Origin: Candidatus Falkowiibacteriota bacterium
GTDB lineage: Bacteria > Patescibacteriota > Patescibacteriia > Patescibacteriales > UBA12465
Assembly (NCBI GenBank): GCA_009885285.1
Contig: VFKX01000005.1
Span: 1-50,282, forward strand
Length of the DNA stretch: 50,282 bases
Direction: 5' to 3'
Each line of letters begins with the position of its first letter. Position 1 is the first letter of the stretch. The position numbers and the translations under genes were made by a program. Below the pieces are notes generated by a model, which was not told where the DNA came from, did no database searches, and saw only the letters and a program-made list of their open reading frames with translations. Below, piece after piece: positions 36,605-42,528 of the stretch.

Positions 36605-37579
36605 ATGTTTTCTTACAGAACTCTATTAAAACAGGCCTGGACCATCACCTGGGAACATAAATATCTTTGGTTTCTTGGACTATTCGCTTCATTAGTTGCT
36701 GGCGGCGGTTCTTGGGAATATCAGGTTATCACGCAAAACTTAGGCCAAAGTCCAATTGATGGTTCATTCATGCGTCTGGGCGGCATTTTAGCTATTGGCG
36801 ATGTGATAAAAAATTTCTTCCTCGGCCTCGTTACGTTGGCACAGCAAGACTTTTGGACCATCCTTAGCGTTACTTCTATCATCTTAATTTCTGTAATCTT
36901 ACTGACTTTTTTCATCTGGATGGCTATCACTTCTCAGGGAGCCTTAATCAGCAGTGTTAAAAAAATCATAACTGCTAAGAAAAAGCCGGAAAATCTCACT
37001 GTGCGCGATAGTTTAAGCGAGGGGTACAAACATTTTTGGCCAGTATTAGGTCTGAACATCTTCGTCAAAGGCCTGATTTACCTGATTGTTTTCCTCATCA
37101 GCCTCCCCCTCCTATTCATGGTCGTCAGTAATTCATTTGCTCTATACGTCGCTTATATCATTATCTTTGTGGCCTTTATTCCAGTAGCCATGGGCTTATC
37201 TCTGATGATTAAGTATGCTATCGCCTATAAAGTCATCGAAAATAAGTCATTTGTCGCCTCTCTGGAACATAGCTTTAGATTATTCCGCAATAATTGGCTA
37301 GTAAGTTTAGAGATGGCGGTTATCCTCTTTCTGCTTAATTTCCTATTCAGTGGAGTAGCCTTAATTGCTCTGTCTCTGATATTATTGCCGCTATTCCTTA
37401 TCGGCCTGATGTTTAATGCCTTCTGGTTAACTATTGTTTCCTTATTCTTGGCCATTGCTGTCGTTATTATCTTCGGCTCAATTCTCACCACCTTCCAAAC
37501 TGCTTCCTGGACCAACCTCTTCTTACATTTAAAAGAAAAAGGCGGACTGGCAAAGCTAGAACGCTTATTCTCAAGATAA
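36605..37579 (+). CDS. Polytopic membrane protein of unknown function
   Basis: 324 residues with about six or seven membrane spans (near residues 20-36, 82-107, 145-175, 180-210, 232-258, 260-295). The N-terminal cytoplasmic helix (LLKQAWTITWEHKYLWFLGL) and a VIENKSFVASLEHSFRLFRN amphipathic segment are the most distinctive parts. No catalytic motif is seen; the layout recalls permease-like membrane-domain families but I cannot assign one. It is the first gene of the operon with the double PilB, 35 bases upstream. No Shine-Dalgarno. Confidence 0.75.
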   Translation: MFSYRTLLKQAWTITWEHKYLWFLGLFASLVAGGGSWEYQVITQNLGQSPIDGSFMRLGGILAIGDVIKNFFLGLVTLAQQDFWTILSVTSIILISVILLTFFIWMAITSQGALISSVKKIITAKKKPENLTVRDSLSEGYKHFWPVLGLNIFVKGLIYLIVFLISLPLLFMVVSNSFALYVAYIIIFVAFIPVAMGLSLMIKYAIAYKVIENKSFVASLEHSFRLFRNNWLVSLEMAVILFLLNFLFSGVALIALSLILLPLFLIGLMFNAFWLTIVSLFLAIAVVIIFGSILTTFQTASWTNLFLHLKEKGGLAKLERLFSR

Positions 37580-37614: not shown

Positions 37615-40600
37615 ATGAGTGATCTCGCCTCCATTGAGAATTTAATTAATCCGACCGACGACGAAGAGAGCGTTGCCGGTCTTTTTGCGAAAAAACAAGG
37701 AGAAATTAAAAATAAAGAAATAGAAAAGGAAACCAAAGAAGCTGCGCAGCAGTTAGGCTTTGACTATGTAAATTTATCCGGCTTCCCTATTAGCCCCGAG
37801 GCTCTCGCCCTAATCCAAGAGCAGAGAGCCAAGGAACTGGGCGCTATCTGTTTTTATTATGACGGCAAGAGCATTAGACTCGGCTGTGTTAGCCCGACTA
37901 CAGAGGTTAAGGCAGAAATGACTCGGCTCGGCGACCAATACTTTGCCAATACCAAACTTTATCTAATATCCACGACTAGTCTAGAAATCGGTTTAGAGGC
38001 CTATAAAAATCTACCGAAAGTTAAGAAATATGAAAGCGGTGTAGAGATTACCGAAGAAAACCTGGAAAAATTCAAGAGCGATATCAGCAGTTATAAGAGC
38101 TTGAATGAAAAAATCAATGAAGTAAATATCACTGATATCATTACTTTAATACTCGCCACCGCCATGAAAGTCAGGGGTAGCGATATCCATATTGAAGCCG
38201 AGGAAACTGGCGTCGTCATCAGAATCAGAATTGACGGTGTCTTACAAGAAGCAGCCGTGATAGACAGAACGAAGTGGAATAAAATCGTATCCCGTTTAAA
38301 AATTCTGGCCAGAGTCAAGATTAATATTGATAACCAACCGCAAGACGGACGCTACACCATTTATTTAACCAATAAAAAAATAGATGTCCGTGTTTCTTTC
38401 CTGCCGACAGCCTATGGCGAAAGCGTCGTCATGCGTCTTCTTGACTCATCATCAGTGGCTCTCGAATTTGAAAGTCTTGGTATCAGACCGGAGATCATGC
38501 CTTTACTGGCTCGGGAAATCTCTAAGCCTAATGGCTTAGTGGTCACCGTCGGTCCGACTGGTAGCGGCAAAACAACAACTTTATACGCCGTTTTAAATAA
38601 GCTTAACCGTCCCGGCACAAAGATTATTACCCTGGAAGACCCGATTGAATATCAGCTTAAAGGCATTAACCAAAGCCAAGTCGATGAAAAGCGCGGCTAC
38701 ACTTTCTCTGATGGTCTGCGCTCGATTTTGCGCCAAGACCCTAACGTCGTCATGGTTGGAGAAATTCGCGATTTAGAGACAGCAGAAATTGCCGTCCAAG
38801 CCTCGCTGACCGGACATCTCGTCCTTTCCACTATGCACACCAATGATTCCGCTGGTTCAATTCCTCGATTGATTGACCTTGGAGTTAAGCCGTATTTCCT
38901 GGCGCCATCAATCAATGTCATTATCGGCCAACGCTTAGTCCGAAAAGTCTGCCAGACTTGCCGCGTTGAGCATGTACTTAGCGTTGATGAGTCCGAACAA
39001 ATCAATAAAATCCTGGCCGTACTTTCTCCAAAAGCCGGCGTTAACATCCCTTCAACTTTGCCGACCATCTATGCTGCCGGACCAGGCTGTGATCAATGCA
39101 ATTTTATTGGTTATAAAGGTCGCTTAGGCATCTATGAGGTCTTAGCCATGAATGACAAGCTTAAGCAATTAACTATTGATCAGGCGCCTTCTTTTAAACT
39201 TTTGCAGCAAGCCATTGAAGACGGCATGATTACCATGTTGCAGGACGGTATCCTTAAAATAATGGACGGACTAACTTCTATAGAGGAAGTTTACCGCGTT
39301 ATCGGCAACTTCGACTATATCAATGAGCTTTACGATGTTGTTATCTCTCAAACAATCGGCCGCGGCGTAAAAATAACACCTGCTCAATTCCAAAAAGCTG
39401 GCGAATTAAGCCAAAGTATTGGCGACATTTCGCAAGCCGTCAAAGATATCCCTACCGGAGAAATCATTAATCTGGTCTTAGCACTGGGCGCTGTTAGCGA
39501 TGCCGGCGATATTCACATTGAGCCAACCGAAATTGACGTCAAAGTCCGCTTCAGAATTGATGGTGTCATGCACGATGTTTTAAGCTTACCAAAAACCAGT
39601 TATTTTCCGCTTCTTTCAGAAATAAAAATATTGGCCGGTGCGCCGACCAACGTTAAGCGGGCTACATTTGACGGCCGCTTCGCAATTTATCTGCCCGACA
39701 ATAAAGTTGACTGCCGTTTATCCATTATTGCCGGCGGTTACGGTGAAACAATCGTTATCCGCTTACTATCAACTTCAGCTGCAAATTTAGACATGAATAA
39801 GTTGGGCATTACTGCTGTTGCCTTCGACTCCCTGCAAGAGGCCATGAAGAAAACTAGAGGTATTATCATCACGACCGGTCCAACCGGCAGCGGTAAGACT
39901 ACCACCCTATACAGTATTTTGAATAAACTTAATAAAGCGGACGTTAAGATAATTACGGTTGAAGATCCAATTGAATATCAGTTGGCTGGTGTCATGCAAA
40001 CCCAAATTGACGAAGAACGCGGCTATACTTTTGCCTCTGCCATGCGCTCCTTGCTGCGCCAAAACCCGAACATCATGATGATCGGTGAAATCCGCGACAG
40101 TGAAACAGCCAAGATAGCGATTGAAGCCTCCTTGACCGGTCACTTAGTGCTTTCTACTATTCACGCGAATTCCGCCGCCAGTGCCATCTCTCGTTTCGTC
40201 GGCCTCGGTGTTGACCGGCAGACCCTAGCCAATTCTATTGAATTCGCCATCGGTCAACGTTTAGTGCGCCGCCTCTGTCCGTACTGTAAAAAGGTAGCCG
40301 ATGTTTCACCGGAAGAAATTAAACACGTCCAGGATATATTAGCGAATATTAAAAACCCCAAGATTACTATTCCGACTAACCTGTTCTTTTATACTGGCGT
40401 CGGCTGCGTTAAATGCGGCCAGATTGGCTATAAAGGACGTCTAGGCTTATATGAAACCTTAACCATGAGCCCGAATATCCAAAAACTGATTCAAACGGAA
40501 AATGTTATTGATGTGGATATTGAGAATGCGGCCGTCAGCGAAGGCATGGTGACCATGATTCAAGACGGCGTCTTAAAAGCTTTAAATGGCGACACTAGCC

Positions 40601-40626
40601 TTGAAGAAGTTTTCCGCGTAATTTAA
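37615..40626 (+). CDS. pilB: Tandem PilB/GspE protein: one chain with two complete secretion ATPase modules
   Basis: 1003 residues, about twice a PilB core. Residues 1-125 form an MshEN-like N-domain. Module 1 (about 160-565) has SDIHIE, RIRIDGVLQEA, Walker A GPTGSGKT (313-320), EDPIEYQL, Walker B-type VVMVGEIRDLETAEI, the His box LSTMH, and zinc cysteines CQTC with CDQC, then GYKGRLGIYEVL. Module 2 (about 610-1003) repeats the order: DIHIE, RFRIDGVMHDV, Walker A GPTGSGKT (755-762), EDPIEYQL, MMIGEIRDSETAKI, LSTIH, CPYC with CVKC, GYKGRLGLYETL. Every key residue I can check is present in both. The frame is unbroken, so this is a true fusion or internal duplication. PilB hexamers power type IV pilus assembly; here three chains could form the ring. 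No pilin or PilC lies nearby. Confidence 0.93.
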   Translation: MSDLASIENLINPTDDEESVAGLFAKKQGEIKNKEIEKETKEAAQQLGFDYVNLSGFPISPEALALIQEQRAKELGAICFYYDGKSIRLGCVSPTTEVKAEMTRLGDQYFANTKLYLISTTSLEIGLEAYKNLPKVKKYESGVEITEENLEKFKSDISSYKSLNEKINEVNITDIITLILATAMKVRGSDIHIEAEETGVVIRIRIDGVLQEAAVIDRTKWNKIVSRLKILARVKINIDNQPQDGRYTIYLTNKKIDVRVSFLPTAYGESVVMRLLDSSSVALEFESLGIRPEIMPLLAREISKPNGLVVTVGPTGSGKTTTLYAVLNKLNRPGTKIITLEDPIEYQLKGINQSQVDEKRGYTFSDGLRSILRQDPNVVMVGEIRDLETAEIAVQASLTGHLVLSTMHTNDSAGSIPRLIDLGVKPYFLAPSINVIIGQRLVRKVCQTCRVEHVLSVDESEQINKILAVLSPKAGVNIPSTLPTIYAAGPGCDQCNFIGYKGRLGIYEVLAMNDKLKQLTIDQAPSFKLLQQAIEDGMITMLQDGILKIMDGLTSIEEVYRVIGNFDYINELYDVVISQTIGRGVKITPAQFQKAGELSQSIGDISQAVKDIPTGEIINLVLALGAVSDAGDIHIEPTEIDVKVRFRIDGVMHDVLSLPKTSYFPLLSEIKILAGAPTNVKRATFDGRFAIYLPDNKVDCRLSIIAGGYGETIVIRLLSTSAANLDMNKLGITAVAFDSLQEAMKKTRGIIITTGPTGSGKTTTLYSILNKLNKADVKIITVEDPIEYQLAGVMQTQIDEERGYTFASAMRSLLRQNPNIMMIGEIRDSETAKIAIEASLTGHLVLSTIHANSAASAISRFVGLGVDRQTLANSIEFAIGQRLVRRLCPYCKKVADVSPEEIKHVQDILANIKNPKITIPTNLFFYTGVGCVKCGQIGYKGRLGLYETLTMSPNIQKLIQTENVIDVDIENAAVSEGMVTMIQDGVLKALNGDTSLEEVFRVI

Positions 40627-40642
40627 TTTTGTAATTATTCTT

Positions 40643-41218
40643 ATGATCAGCCCTAAATTTTTAGAAGAACTCAGAAAAGACTACCAAGCCAATGAATCAG
40701 AGCGTCGCCAGATAATCAGCGCCTCCAACAATATCTTGTTTGAGGCTAAGAAAACAATATTTGCCCTGCAAAGACAAGATTTTAAAACTGCCGTGACTAA
40801 AATTGCAGCCAACGAAGAAAATCTAAAAAATCTCGCCAAACGCTTCGGCCAAGAACGATTGAACAAGGAAGGGGCTTATAAAGCAGCGGCCGAAGAATAT
40901 CTTGAAGGCAAGACTTTTTTCTTGGTCATTAAGGGTAAAAAAATAGAAGCAACTCCAGGTTTGCAACTTGACTATGAGGCTTATCTCGGCGGAATTTGTG
41001 ACTTAATTGGCGAATTAGTCAGATACGCAACTAACCAAGCCGCTAACGGCAAATTCACCGCTGTGGCAAAAATCAAACAAGGTGCAGAGGACATTATGGC
41101 GCAACTGATTGACTTTGATATGACTGGCTACCTTCGAACCAAATATGACCAAGCCCGTGGCCACTTGCGTAAACTTGAGCAGATGGCCTATGAAATCAAA
41201 TTAAGGGGTAAAAAATAA
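40643..41218 (+). CDS. Translin-like protein
   Basis: 191 residues, largely helical. The best clues are the segment AYLGGICDLIGELVR (about 118-132), very like the YLxGLxDLxGEL signature of translin/TRAX proteins, and TGYLRTKYDQARGHLRKLEQ near the end, like the conserved LRxKxDxAR helix. The N-terminus (SERRQIISASNNILFEAKKT) fits the usual R-x-I-x-SR-x-KK start. Translins form octameric shells that bind single-stranded RNA or DNA, and the TRAX partner is an RNase. The gene lies 16 bases after the double pilB and 11 before a phosphoesterase gene. A role in RNA metabolism is inference. Confidence 0.6.
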   Translation: MISPKFLEELRKDYQANESERRQIISASNNILFEAKKTIFALQRQDFKTAVTKIAANEENLKNLAKRFGQERLNKEGAYKAAAEEYLEGKTFFLVIKGKKIEATPGLQLDYEAYLGGICDLIGELVRYATNQAANGKFTAVAKIKQGAEDIMAQLIDFDMTGYLRTKYDQARGHLRKLEQMAYEIKLRGKK

Positions 41219-41229
41219 TCCTTCCCCTT

Positions 41230-41730
41230 ATGATGATTGCTATAATCTCCGACATTCACGACAATGTCGCTAATTTAGAGAAGTGCTTGAGTTGGTGTCT
41301 TAAAAACGATATAGAGAAGCTAGTCGCCTGTGGCGATATGGCAAATATTGATACAATTGCCTATTTATCTGCTAATTTTCCGGGAGAAATATATTTAATT
41401 GACGGTAACGCCGAGCTTTATGGTGAACGTGAACTTGAACCGTTCACTAATATCATTTATAGCGGTGAGATAGGCTTAAGAGAAATCGGCGGTCTAAGAA
41501 TCGGCTTCTGCCACCAGCCAGAAAAGATTAAGAAAGTTTTTAAACTGGCACAAACGGCTCCGGACTTCATCTTTTACGGACATACTCATAAACCTTGGCT
41601 CGAGCGCGACGGAGATACGACCATAGCTAATCCTGGTAATCTCGCCGGCATTATCCATCAAGCCACCTTCGCCGTCCTTGATTGCCAATATAAAAAATTA
41701 GATTTAAAAATACTTGCTGATTTAAAATAA
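41230..41730 (+). CDS. YfcE/MJ0936-type metallophosphoesterase
   Basis: 166 residues, the usual size of this small family. Metal-ligand motifs appear in order: SDIHDN, CGDM, the GNHD box as GNAEL, GFCHQP, and GHTHKPW, ending ANPGNLAG. The GN-C/H-D box is degenerate at its last two positions. Family members hydrolyse phosphodiesters or 2',3'-cyclic phosphate mimics with Mn. Two ATGs in a row (41230, 41233) could serve as start. It is co-transcribed with the translin-like gene, so an RNA-end substrate is a fair guess. Confidence 0.9.
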   Translation: MMIAIISDIHDNVANLEKCLSWCLKNDIEKLVACGDMANIDTIAYLSANFPGEIYLIDGNAELYGERELEPFTNIIYSGEIGLREIGGLRIGFCHQPEKIKKVFKLAQTAPDFIFYGHTHKPWLERDGDTTIANPGNLAGIIHQATFAVLDCQYKKLDLKILADLK

Positions 41731-41742
41731 GTCCTTAACAAT

Positions 41743-42528
41743 ATGGACAATCTTTCAAAATTAAAAAGCGTCTTGATCGGCACGATTAAGGCAGCCGGAC
41801 TCGCCATCATTAAAGATTATAATGATCTGGATATGAAGAGCGTTAAGCTTAAATCTGCTCGCGACCTAGTGACCGGAGCGGATTTAAAAAGTGAAAAGAT
41901 AATCTTAGACAAAATCAAAGCTAGCTTTCCTGATCATCAAATACTGTCCGAGGAATCAGGCCGCAGCGGCAAAAAAAGCGACTATCTCTGGATTATCGAC
42001 CCGCTCGATGGGACCACGAATTTTTTCATGCATAACCCGCTCTGGTCGGTTTCGATTGGACTAGCGTATAAAGGCAAAATGATAATGGGCGCTGTTTATG
42101 CTCCCATGCAAAAAGAGTTATACCACGCCGTCCTCGGTCAGGGTGCGTATCTGAATAACAAGAAAATTACGGTCAATAATGACCCGATCAAATCTTTAAA
42201 CGCCTTCTGTCATGGTCGGGAAATTAAAAATATTCAGAGAATGGTTAAATACTTCGCTTACCAAAAAGAGCATAGTCTTGATTGCCGACAAATCGGCAGT
42301 GCCGCCATTGAAACAGCTTATGTGGCTGCCGGCCGACTCTCATCGATCCTTATTCCCGGGGCCTGGCCTTGGGATGTAGCAGCTGGCACGATTCTAATTA
42401 GAGAAGCTGGTGGCAAGGTCACCGACTTTAACGGTCGAGAATGGAATCACGCCGAAAGAGATTATTTAGGGGCAAGTCAGAAGTCGCATAAAAAAATACT
42501 TAAAATTATAAAATCACTGGGAATATAA
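41743..42528 (+). CDS. Inositol-monophosphatase-family sugar phosphatase
   Basis: 261 residues. The metal-binding motifs of the family are all seen: EESG, DPLDGTTNF, and WPWDVAAG, with GGKVTDFNG near the end. The family includes SuhB, CysQ (3'-phosphoadenosine phosphatase) and fructose-1,6-bisphosphatase; the substrate cannot be told from the motifs. It lies 12 bases after the phosphoesterase gene and ends the plus-strand operon. Confidence 0.92.
   Translation: MDNLSKLKSVLIGTIKAAGLAIIKDYNDLDMKSVKLKSARDLVTGADLKSEKIILDKIKASFPDHQILSEESGRSGKKSDYLWIIDPLDGTTNFFMHNPLWSVSIGLAYKGKMIMGAVYAPMQKELYHAVLGQGAYLNNKKITVNNDPIKSLNAFCHGREIKNIQRMVKYFAYQKEHSLDCRQIGSAAIETAYVAAGRLSSILIPGAWPWDVAAGTILIREAGGKVTDFNGREWNHAERDYLGASQKSHKKILKIIKSLGI

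Follow-up and report, generated by a model that had tools for sequence, protein, structure and literature searches.

A secretion-type ATPase with two PilB/GspE-clade cores in one chain, conserved and widespread in Patescibacteria

Typically, ATPases of the PilB/GspE clade (TIGR02538, TIGR02533, PF00437) have a single core per chain, made of an N2D and a CTD domain and marked by Walker A, ASP, Walker B, and HIS boxes, two arginine fingers, and a tetra-cysteine zinc site. In Geobacter PilB, the fingers are R271 and R286, the ASP-box residue E357 binds Mg, E395 is catalytic, H420 is the HIS-box residue, and T411 is donated by the neighbour (PMC5424180, PMC6858323). PilB rings have C2 symmetry (CCOCCO), in which opposite positions are alike, and C3 rings (OCOCOC) are known for PilT, FlaI, and the archaeal GspE2 (PMC6858323). 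PilT and PilU belong to the same superfamily, but PilT has one core per chain and no zinc site. Tandem cores in one polypeptide do occur in KaiC and p97, where the cores stack as two homotypic rings. We found no description of a tandem or fused PilB or GspE in the open literature that we searched, and the ATPase described here is apparently an undescribed variant of a known ATPase family.

Two ATPase cores in a single reading frame

The window that we analysed is a stretch of 50,282 nucleotides from a Candidatus Falkowiibacteriota bacterium (contig VFKX01000005.1). On its forward strand, one open frame runs from an ATG at 37615 to a stop at 40626 and encodes 1003 aa. The Pfam T2SSE model matches this protein in two stretches (171-561 and about 612-1003; 764.5 bits in total), and when the chain is aligned with itself, residues 142-563 and 584-1003 are 45% identical (370 bits, E 1e-129), a likeness that by this alignment far exceeds chance. 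Both modules have a Walker A motif, an ASP box, a Walker B motif, a HIS box, and two CxxC pairs, and the Walker A motifs, at 313 and 755, are 442 residues apart. The initial annotation, made from the sequence alone, had claimed two complete ATPase cores in one chain; the two T2SSE stretches, the identity between the modules, and the doubled motif set bear this out, and its coordinates, motif list, Walker A spacing, and unbroken frame were all correct.

The chain begins with an N-terminal domain (N1D, residues 1-135, 37615-38019) that precedes module 1 only. This domain had been called MshEN-like; that there is a single N-domain, on module 1, stands, but the match to MshEN, the kind of domain through which the extension motor PilB would bind c-di-GMP or a partner, is weak (17.0 bits against a curated cut-off of 23.1, E 0.0057, covering half of MshEN), and we place the domain by this match together with the predicted structure. 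The N2D of module 1 (residues 160-285, 38092-38469) carries the arginine fingers R259 and R274, and its CTD (residues 290-565, 38482-39309) has Walker A at 313-320, ASP-box E345, catalytic E383, HIS-box H408, cysteines 446/449/492/495, and the motif RQDP at 373-376. A linker of 41 residues (566-606, 39310-39432) follows, which echoes the strand-helix-helix lead-in found ahead of the module 1 N2D (residues 142-167, with the second copy at 583-609 in the model). Module 2 then repeats the pattern, with an N2D (residues 607-727, 39433-39795) carrying fingers R701 and R716, and a CTD (residues 732-1003, 39808-40623) with Walker A at 755-762, ASP-box E787, catalytic E825, HIS-box H850, cysteines 888/891/931/934, and, at 815-818, the diagnostic motif RQNP. 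Because the likeness between the modules starts upstream of the N2D, at the lead-in, module 2 is a copy of everything beyond the N-terminal domain. We also considered a conserved Asp-Ile-His motif of the N2D as the ASP box and rejected it, the ASP-box residues being E345 and E787.

An AlphaFold2 single-chain model, built from an alignment of 102 family sequences, has two well-formed cores (mean pLDDT 85.3); as its pTM is 0.50, it leaves the relative placement of the two modules free. The module 2 model matches the PilB structures of G. metallireducens and T. thermophilus with Z 46-47 and rmsd 1.6-2.0 Å. In the predicted poses, the N2D-CTD arrangement of module 2 is PilB-like and that of module 1 PilT C3-like, although such predicted conformations are unreliable. 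Among the structural matches listed there was no solved chain with two cores of the PilB/GspE family, and a search of viral folds gave one single-core DotB-like match and weak ATPase matches.

For comparisons across the family we collected 104 distinct full-length double proteins, 53 from the class of the window (class 1) and 51 from a second class of Patescibacteria (class 2). They are 921-1095 aa long, with Walker A spacings of 430-450 residues, most commonly 442. The Walker A, ASP, Walker B, and HIS boxes and the two arginine fingers are present in both modules of the window protein and are invariant or nearly so in the 104. The tetra-cysteine zinc motif is likewise present in both modules in the window, is kept by module 1 in 104/104, and has been lost from module 2 in 6/51 class 2 members. 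The protein thus belongs, as a secretion-type ATPase with two cores, to the PilB/GspE clade of PilT/VirB11-like ATPases, and it breaks the rule of one core per chain, having one N1D for two cores.

The double ATPase exceeds the PilB and GspE cut-offs (TIGR02538, TIGR02533) only when the scores of its two stretches are added together; a single-module orthologue (L101) scores 482-490 bits, below both cut-offs (630-676), and the canonical PilB of the window's own genome, at 535 bits, is also under the equivalog cut-off. A PilT/PilU identity was rejected, since the zinc motif is present, and the PilT model TIGR01420 (cut-off 319.1) is passed only by summing two stretches (326.4 bits); identity to PilT/PilU is about 30%.

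The initial annotation had named the protein PilB. The genome has a separate canonical PilB (585 aa) on another contig, C101, beside PilM and the one PilC gene that this genome encodes, with PilT on contig C76, and several further genomes with the double ATPase have just two T2SSF matches, which amounts to one PilC. There is no pilC or pilM beside the double ATPase in the window, so that, in contrast to canonical PilB, it lies outside the pilus operon and has no PilC of its own. It is therefore a paralogue of the pilus PilB, and the label PilB overstates what is known. Most likely it serves as an additional motor, for assembly or retraction, that would act either on the PilC platform it shares with PilB or on another, so far unrecognised platform; we put the possibility that it engages PilC at somewhat under an even chance. 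In one genome, a PilC (T2SSF) match lies inside a 727-aa open frame (G716:C1:746329-747309), perhaps a fusion.

Catalytic residues and the arrangement of the cores

We transferred the residue roles of Geobacter PilB (PMC5424180, PMC6858323) by alignment. For module 1 and module 2 respectively, finger R271 corresponds to R259 and R701, finger R286 to R274 and R716, the ASP-box glutamate E357 to E345 and E787, the catalytic E395 to E383 and E825, the HIS-box H420 to H408 and H850, and T411, which comes from the neighbouring packing unit, to T399 and T841. Both ASP-box glutamates, both catalytic glutamates, the Walker lysines, and the first arginine fingers are invariant in 104/104. In class 1 (n=53) the mapped residues are kept in both modules, with lysine for arginine at one finger in two proteins and serine for T841 in three. 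The interface residues T841, H843, and R885 of module 2 are kept almost everywhere. By this mapping, three chains of the window protein would hold six potentially active sites.

The two modules of class 2, as aligned, diverge in different directions. Module 1 has lost the arginine of a QDGR motif in 30/51, with at least 4 changes on the tree that we examined, and module 2 never has. Module 2 has lost zinc cysteines in six proteins and the HIS-box histidine in three, and module 1 has lost neither. The QDGR arginine was considered as an arginine finger and rejected; because the mapping gives R259 and R274 as the fingers, its loss from class 2 first modules does not amount to a loss of catalysis. 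In the second modules without the HIS-box histidine (L165, L209, and L194), the second finger is a lysine, and the trans-acting threonine is T, T, and S. These represent two independent losses, and the retained threonine is a hint that would suit a ring in which the threonine of module 2 completes the site of module 1.

Of the arrangements that we weighed, an alternating ring is most likely, and we give about an even chance to three chains closing into one ring of six cores in which module 1 and module 2 alternate. Each site would then take its Walker A, ASP, and HIS boxes from a single core and its arginine fingers from the N2D of that core, and the next core would supply the threonine, with T841 of module 2 serving the module 1 site and T399 of module 1 serving the module 2 site, so that the modules would complete each other's sites. 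The ring would hold three N-domains instead of six and would have C3 rather than C2 order, and alternation could let one module turn mainly into a motor and the other mainly into a regulator. The initial annotation had suggested that a double core could fix the known two-fold asymmetry of the ring, but this fails. Positions i and i+3 of an alternating ring are always unlike, so exact C2 symmetry, which needs opposite positions to be alike, is impossible. Under a C2 firing order, every opposite pair would be one module 1 and one module 2. Alternation fits C3 (OCOCOC), which is natural to it and which PilT and FlaI rings can adopt, or a lower symmetry.

F1-ATPase, alpha3beta3, is a trimer of unlike pairs, and its 3+3 alternation would be shared by the double ATPase if the ring model is right. 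The same would hold for the alternating diverged duplicates of Pex1/Pex6 (PMC4490564). In contrast to the double ATPase, both have separate chains and belong to unrelated or distant ATPase families, so we draw a functional analogy and make no claim of membership. We hold more tentatively, and consider rather unlikely in its full form, that the double ATPase is a pseudo-hexameric rotary motor with covalently enforced alternation, C3 order, and a 3+3 division of labour like that of F1-ATPase, in which the window's lineage would fire all six sites and one kind of site would be partly out of use in class 2 lineages.

Somewhat less likely still is a stacked double ring of six chains, with a homotypic ring of module 1 on a homotypic ring of module 2, as in KaiC and p97, one facing the membrane and the other regulating. 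Stacking is a familiar arrangement among tandem ATPases with two cores (p97, PMC8861141), and the linker of 41 residues would be long enough to permit it, which is a point against alternation. KaiC chains do align across both modules of our model (Z about 11.8), but at an rmsd of about 17 Å. In addition, the N2D and CTD of PilB already form two tiers, which stacking into a dodecamer would raise to four, and T841, which in homotypic rings would serve only the module 2 site, is kept in module 2 lineages that lack H850 and R716.

We consider it improbable that six chains form a motor ring of module 1 only, with module 2 outside it as a tethered regulator or spare. Module 1 is nearer to the single-module orthologues and evolves more slowly than module 2 (CTD column entropy in class 1 of 0.82 vs 1.05), and in some class 2 members the zinc cysteines or the HIS-box histidine are missing from module 2 alone, as this arrangement might predict. 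Against this, every catalytic residue is kept by module 2 in 53/53 class 1 proteins, as T841, H843, and R885 are almost everywhere, and the QDGR arginine is lost from class 2 first modules and not from second modules.

Origin, distribution and gene neighbourhood

A careful tree with 71 rows puts every one of its 24 second modules, whichever of the two classes they come from, into a single clade with support 100/99, although it should be kept in mind that module 2 sits on long branches. This tree of module 1 against module 2 had been proposed by the initial annotation. Class 1 first modules branch beside the single-module orthologues, and class 2 first modules group with two other class 2 sequences. 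The RQNP motif marks the same clade: in the first tree set it was present in 27/27 second-module rows, whereas the 27 first modules, 38 single forms, and 10 canonical PilBs, all 75, had RQDP and never RQNP. Over all 104 doubles, 99 second modules have N at that position. As the module 2 clade and its signature are common to both classes, the pairing is ancient, and we read the tree and motif as pointing to one old duplication with fusion, after which either many lineages lost module 2 or the gene was transferred.

A recent tandem duplication in each lineage independently, which would leave modules 1 and 2 without any special relation across lineages, seems very unlikely. The long module 2 branches might favour it, and the AU test keeps a clade of modules 1 and 2 in some sets (p 0.092 in an earlier set with fewer class 2 rows; p 0.167 when the class 2 modules are forced together). 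When the class 1 modules are forced together, the constraint is rejected (AU p 0.009), and neither the single clade across classes nor the shared RQNP is expected from separate duplications. Among ten N-domain-less or short paralogues that we checked, there was no stand-alone module 2, and the nine that were placed in the tree, which also argue against independent duplication, group with canonical PilB and carry RQDP. PilB-type ATPases of about 400 aa without the N-domain, with the zinc motif and in a separate operon (L228:2057-3253, L229:2323-3519, L230:2085-3269), cluster with canonical PilB.

The full-length single frame was present in 41/60 relatives, 35/36 from the family of the window and 6/24 from other families of its order. 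More widely, 31/380 genomes of class 1 have the double form, while the best match in most of the remaining genomes is of single-module length (about 560-650 aa), and 52/383 genomes of class 2 match at the threshold that separates doubles. In a scan of named genomes, we found the double ATPase in Falkowbacteria, Buchananbacteria, and Moranbacteria, with the frame checked at each locus. It is encoded in one frame on a closed chromosome (CP066698.1, L041, Falkowbacteria) and in two single-contig genomes (G003 and G023). The search for further two-domain proteins and the check for a joining error, both suggested by the initial annotation, thus gave a family of doubles in two classes and no sign of a false join. 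Although the window's assembly consists of 118 contigs, the chance that assembly or binning fused two genes is practically nil, given the identical frame in 104 independent sequences, among them the closed chromosome and the single-contig genomes, and the conserved gene flanks. The double ATPase is real, ancient, and conserved, and its family is widespread in Patescibacteria.

In the window, a multi-spanning membrane protein of 324 aa (36605-37579, forward strand; DUF7847-like, E 0.0036) ends 35 bases upstream of the ATPase. Downstream on the same strand are a translin-family protein of 191 aa (40643-41218), a calcineurin-like phosphoesterase of 166 aa in the same operon (41230-41730), and an ORF of 261 aa (41743-42528), inositol-monophosphatase-like by reading rather than by a family-library scan, which closes the run. 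The order membrane protein, ATPase, translin, phosphoesterase is typical of class 1. In other families, genes in the identical order surround a single-module orthologue, and FtsH often precedes them, so the double and single ATPases share one locus. This orthologue (for example L101, L105, and L119) is 53-58% identical to the N-domain and module 1 of the doubles and lacks module 2. Where we checked single-module genomes (L104:1962-3821, L106:1927-3753), FtsH precedes the membrane protein and the ATPase, and other single-module genomes have frames of equal length at that position. One genome, G318, apparently has both a single-module ATPase and a second ATPase copy cut by the contig end.

The usual upstream neighbour in class 2 is instead a DHH (NrnA-like) phosphoesterase of about 380 aa (examples are L073:6582-7766, L074:6700-7854, and L164:3311-4444). 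Since the neighbours differ in this way between the classes, gene context names no machine for the double ATPase. It is odd that translin, a nucleic-acid-binding family, lies directly 3' of a secretion-type ATPase throughout class 1. In a few genomes, the gene directly next to the double ATPase encodes a protein of 568 aa without a Pfam match (L163:2490-4196, L151:7037-8743, L167:1632-3338). The membrane protein was present in 12/12 class 1 genomes searched, linked to the ATPase or not. Its model weakly resembles choline-transporter-like proteins (best E 0.027) and has no PilC-like match, and we rejected it as a PilC substitute. It is absent from 4/7 class 2 genomes that have the double ATPase, so an obligate partnership is unlikely.

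Meaning for ring ATPases and for Patescibacteria

Type IV pili of Patescibacteria serve in host attachment and twitching (PMC12206443). Whether ATP turnover in PilT/VirB11-like rings follows C2 or C3 order is disputed, as structures of either kind are available (PMC6858323, PMC5424180). The sites of a homohexamer cannot be altered one at a time. With two distinguishable fused cores, alternate sites can be switched off kind by kind, and if the ring alternates, exact C2 symmetry is forbidden by the sequence itself. The double ATPase may therefore offer a natural test of how a six-part ring fires.
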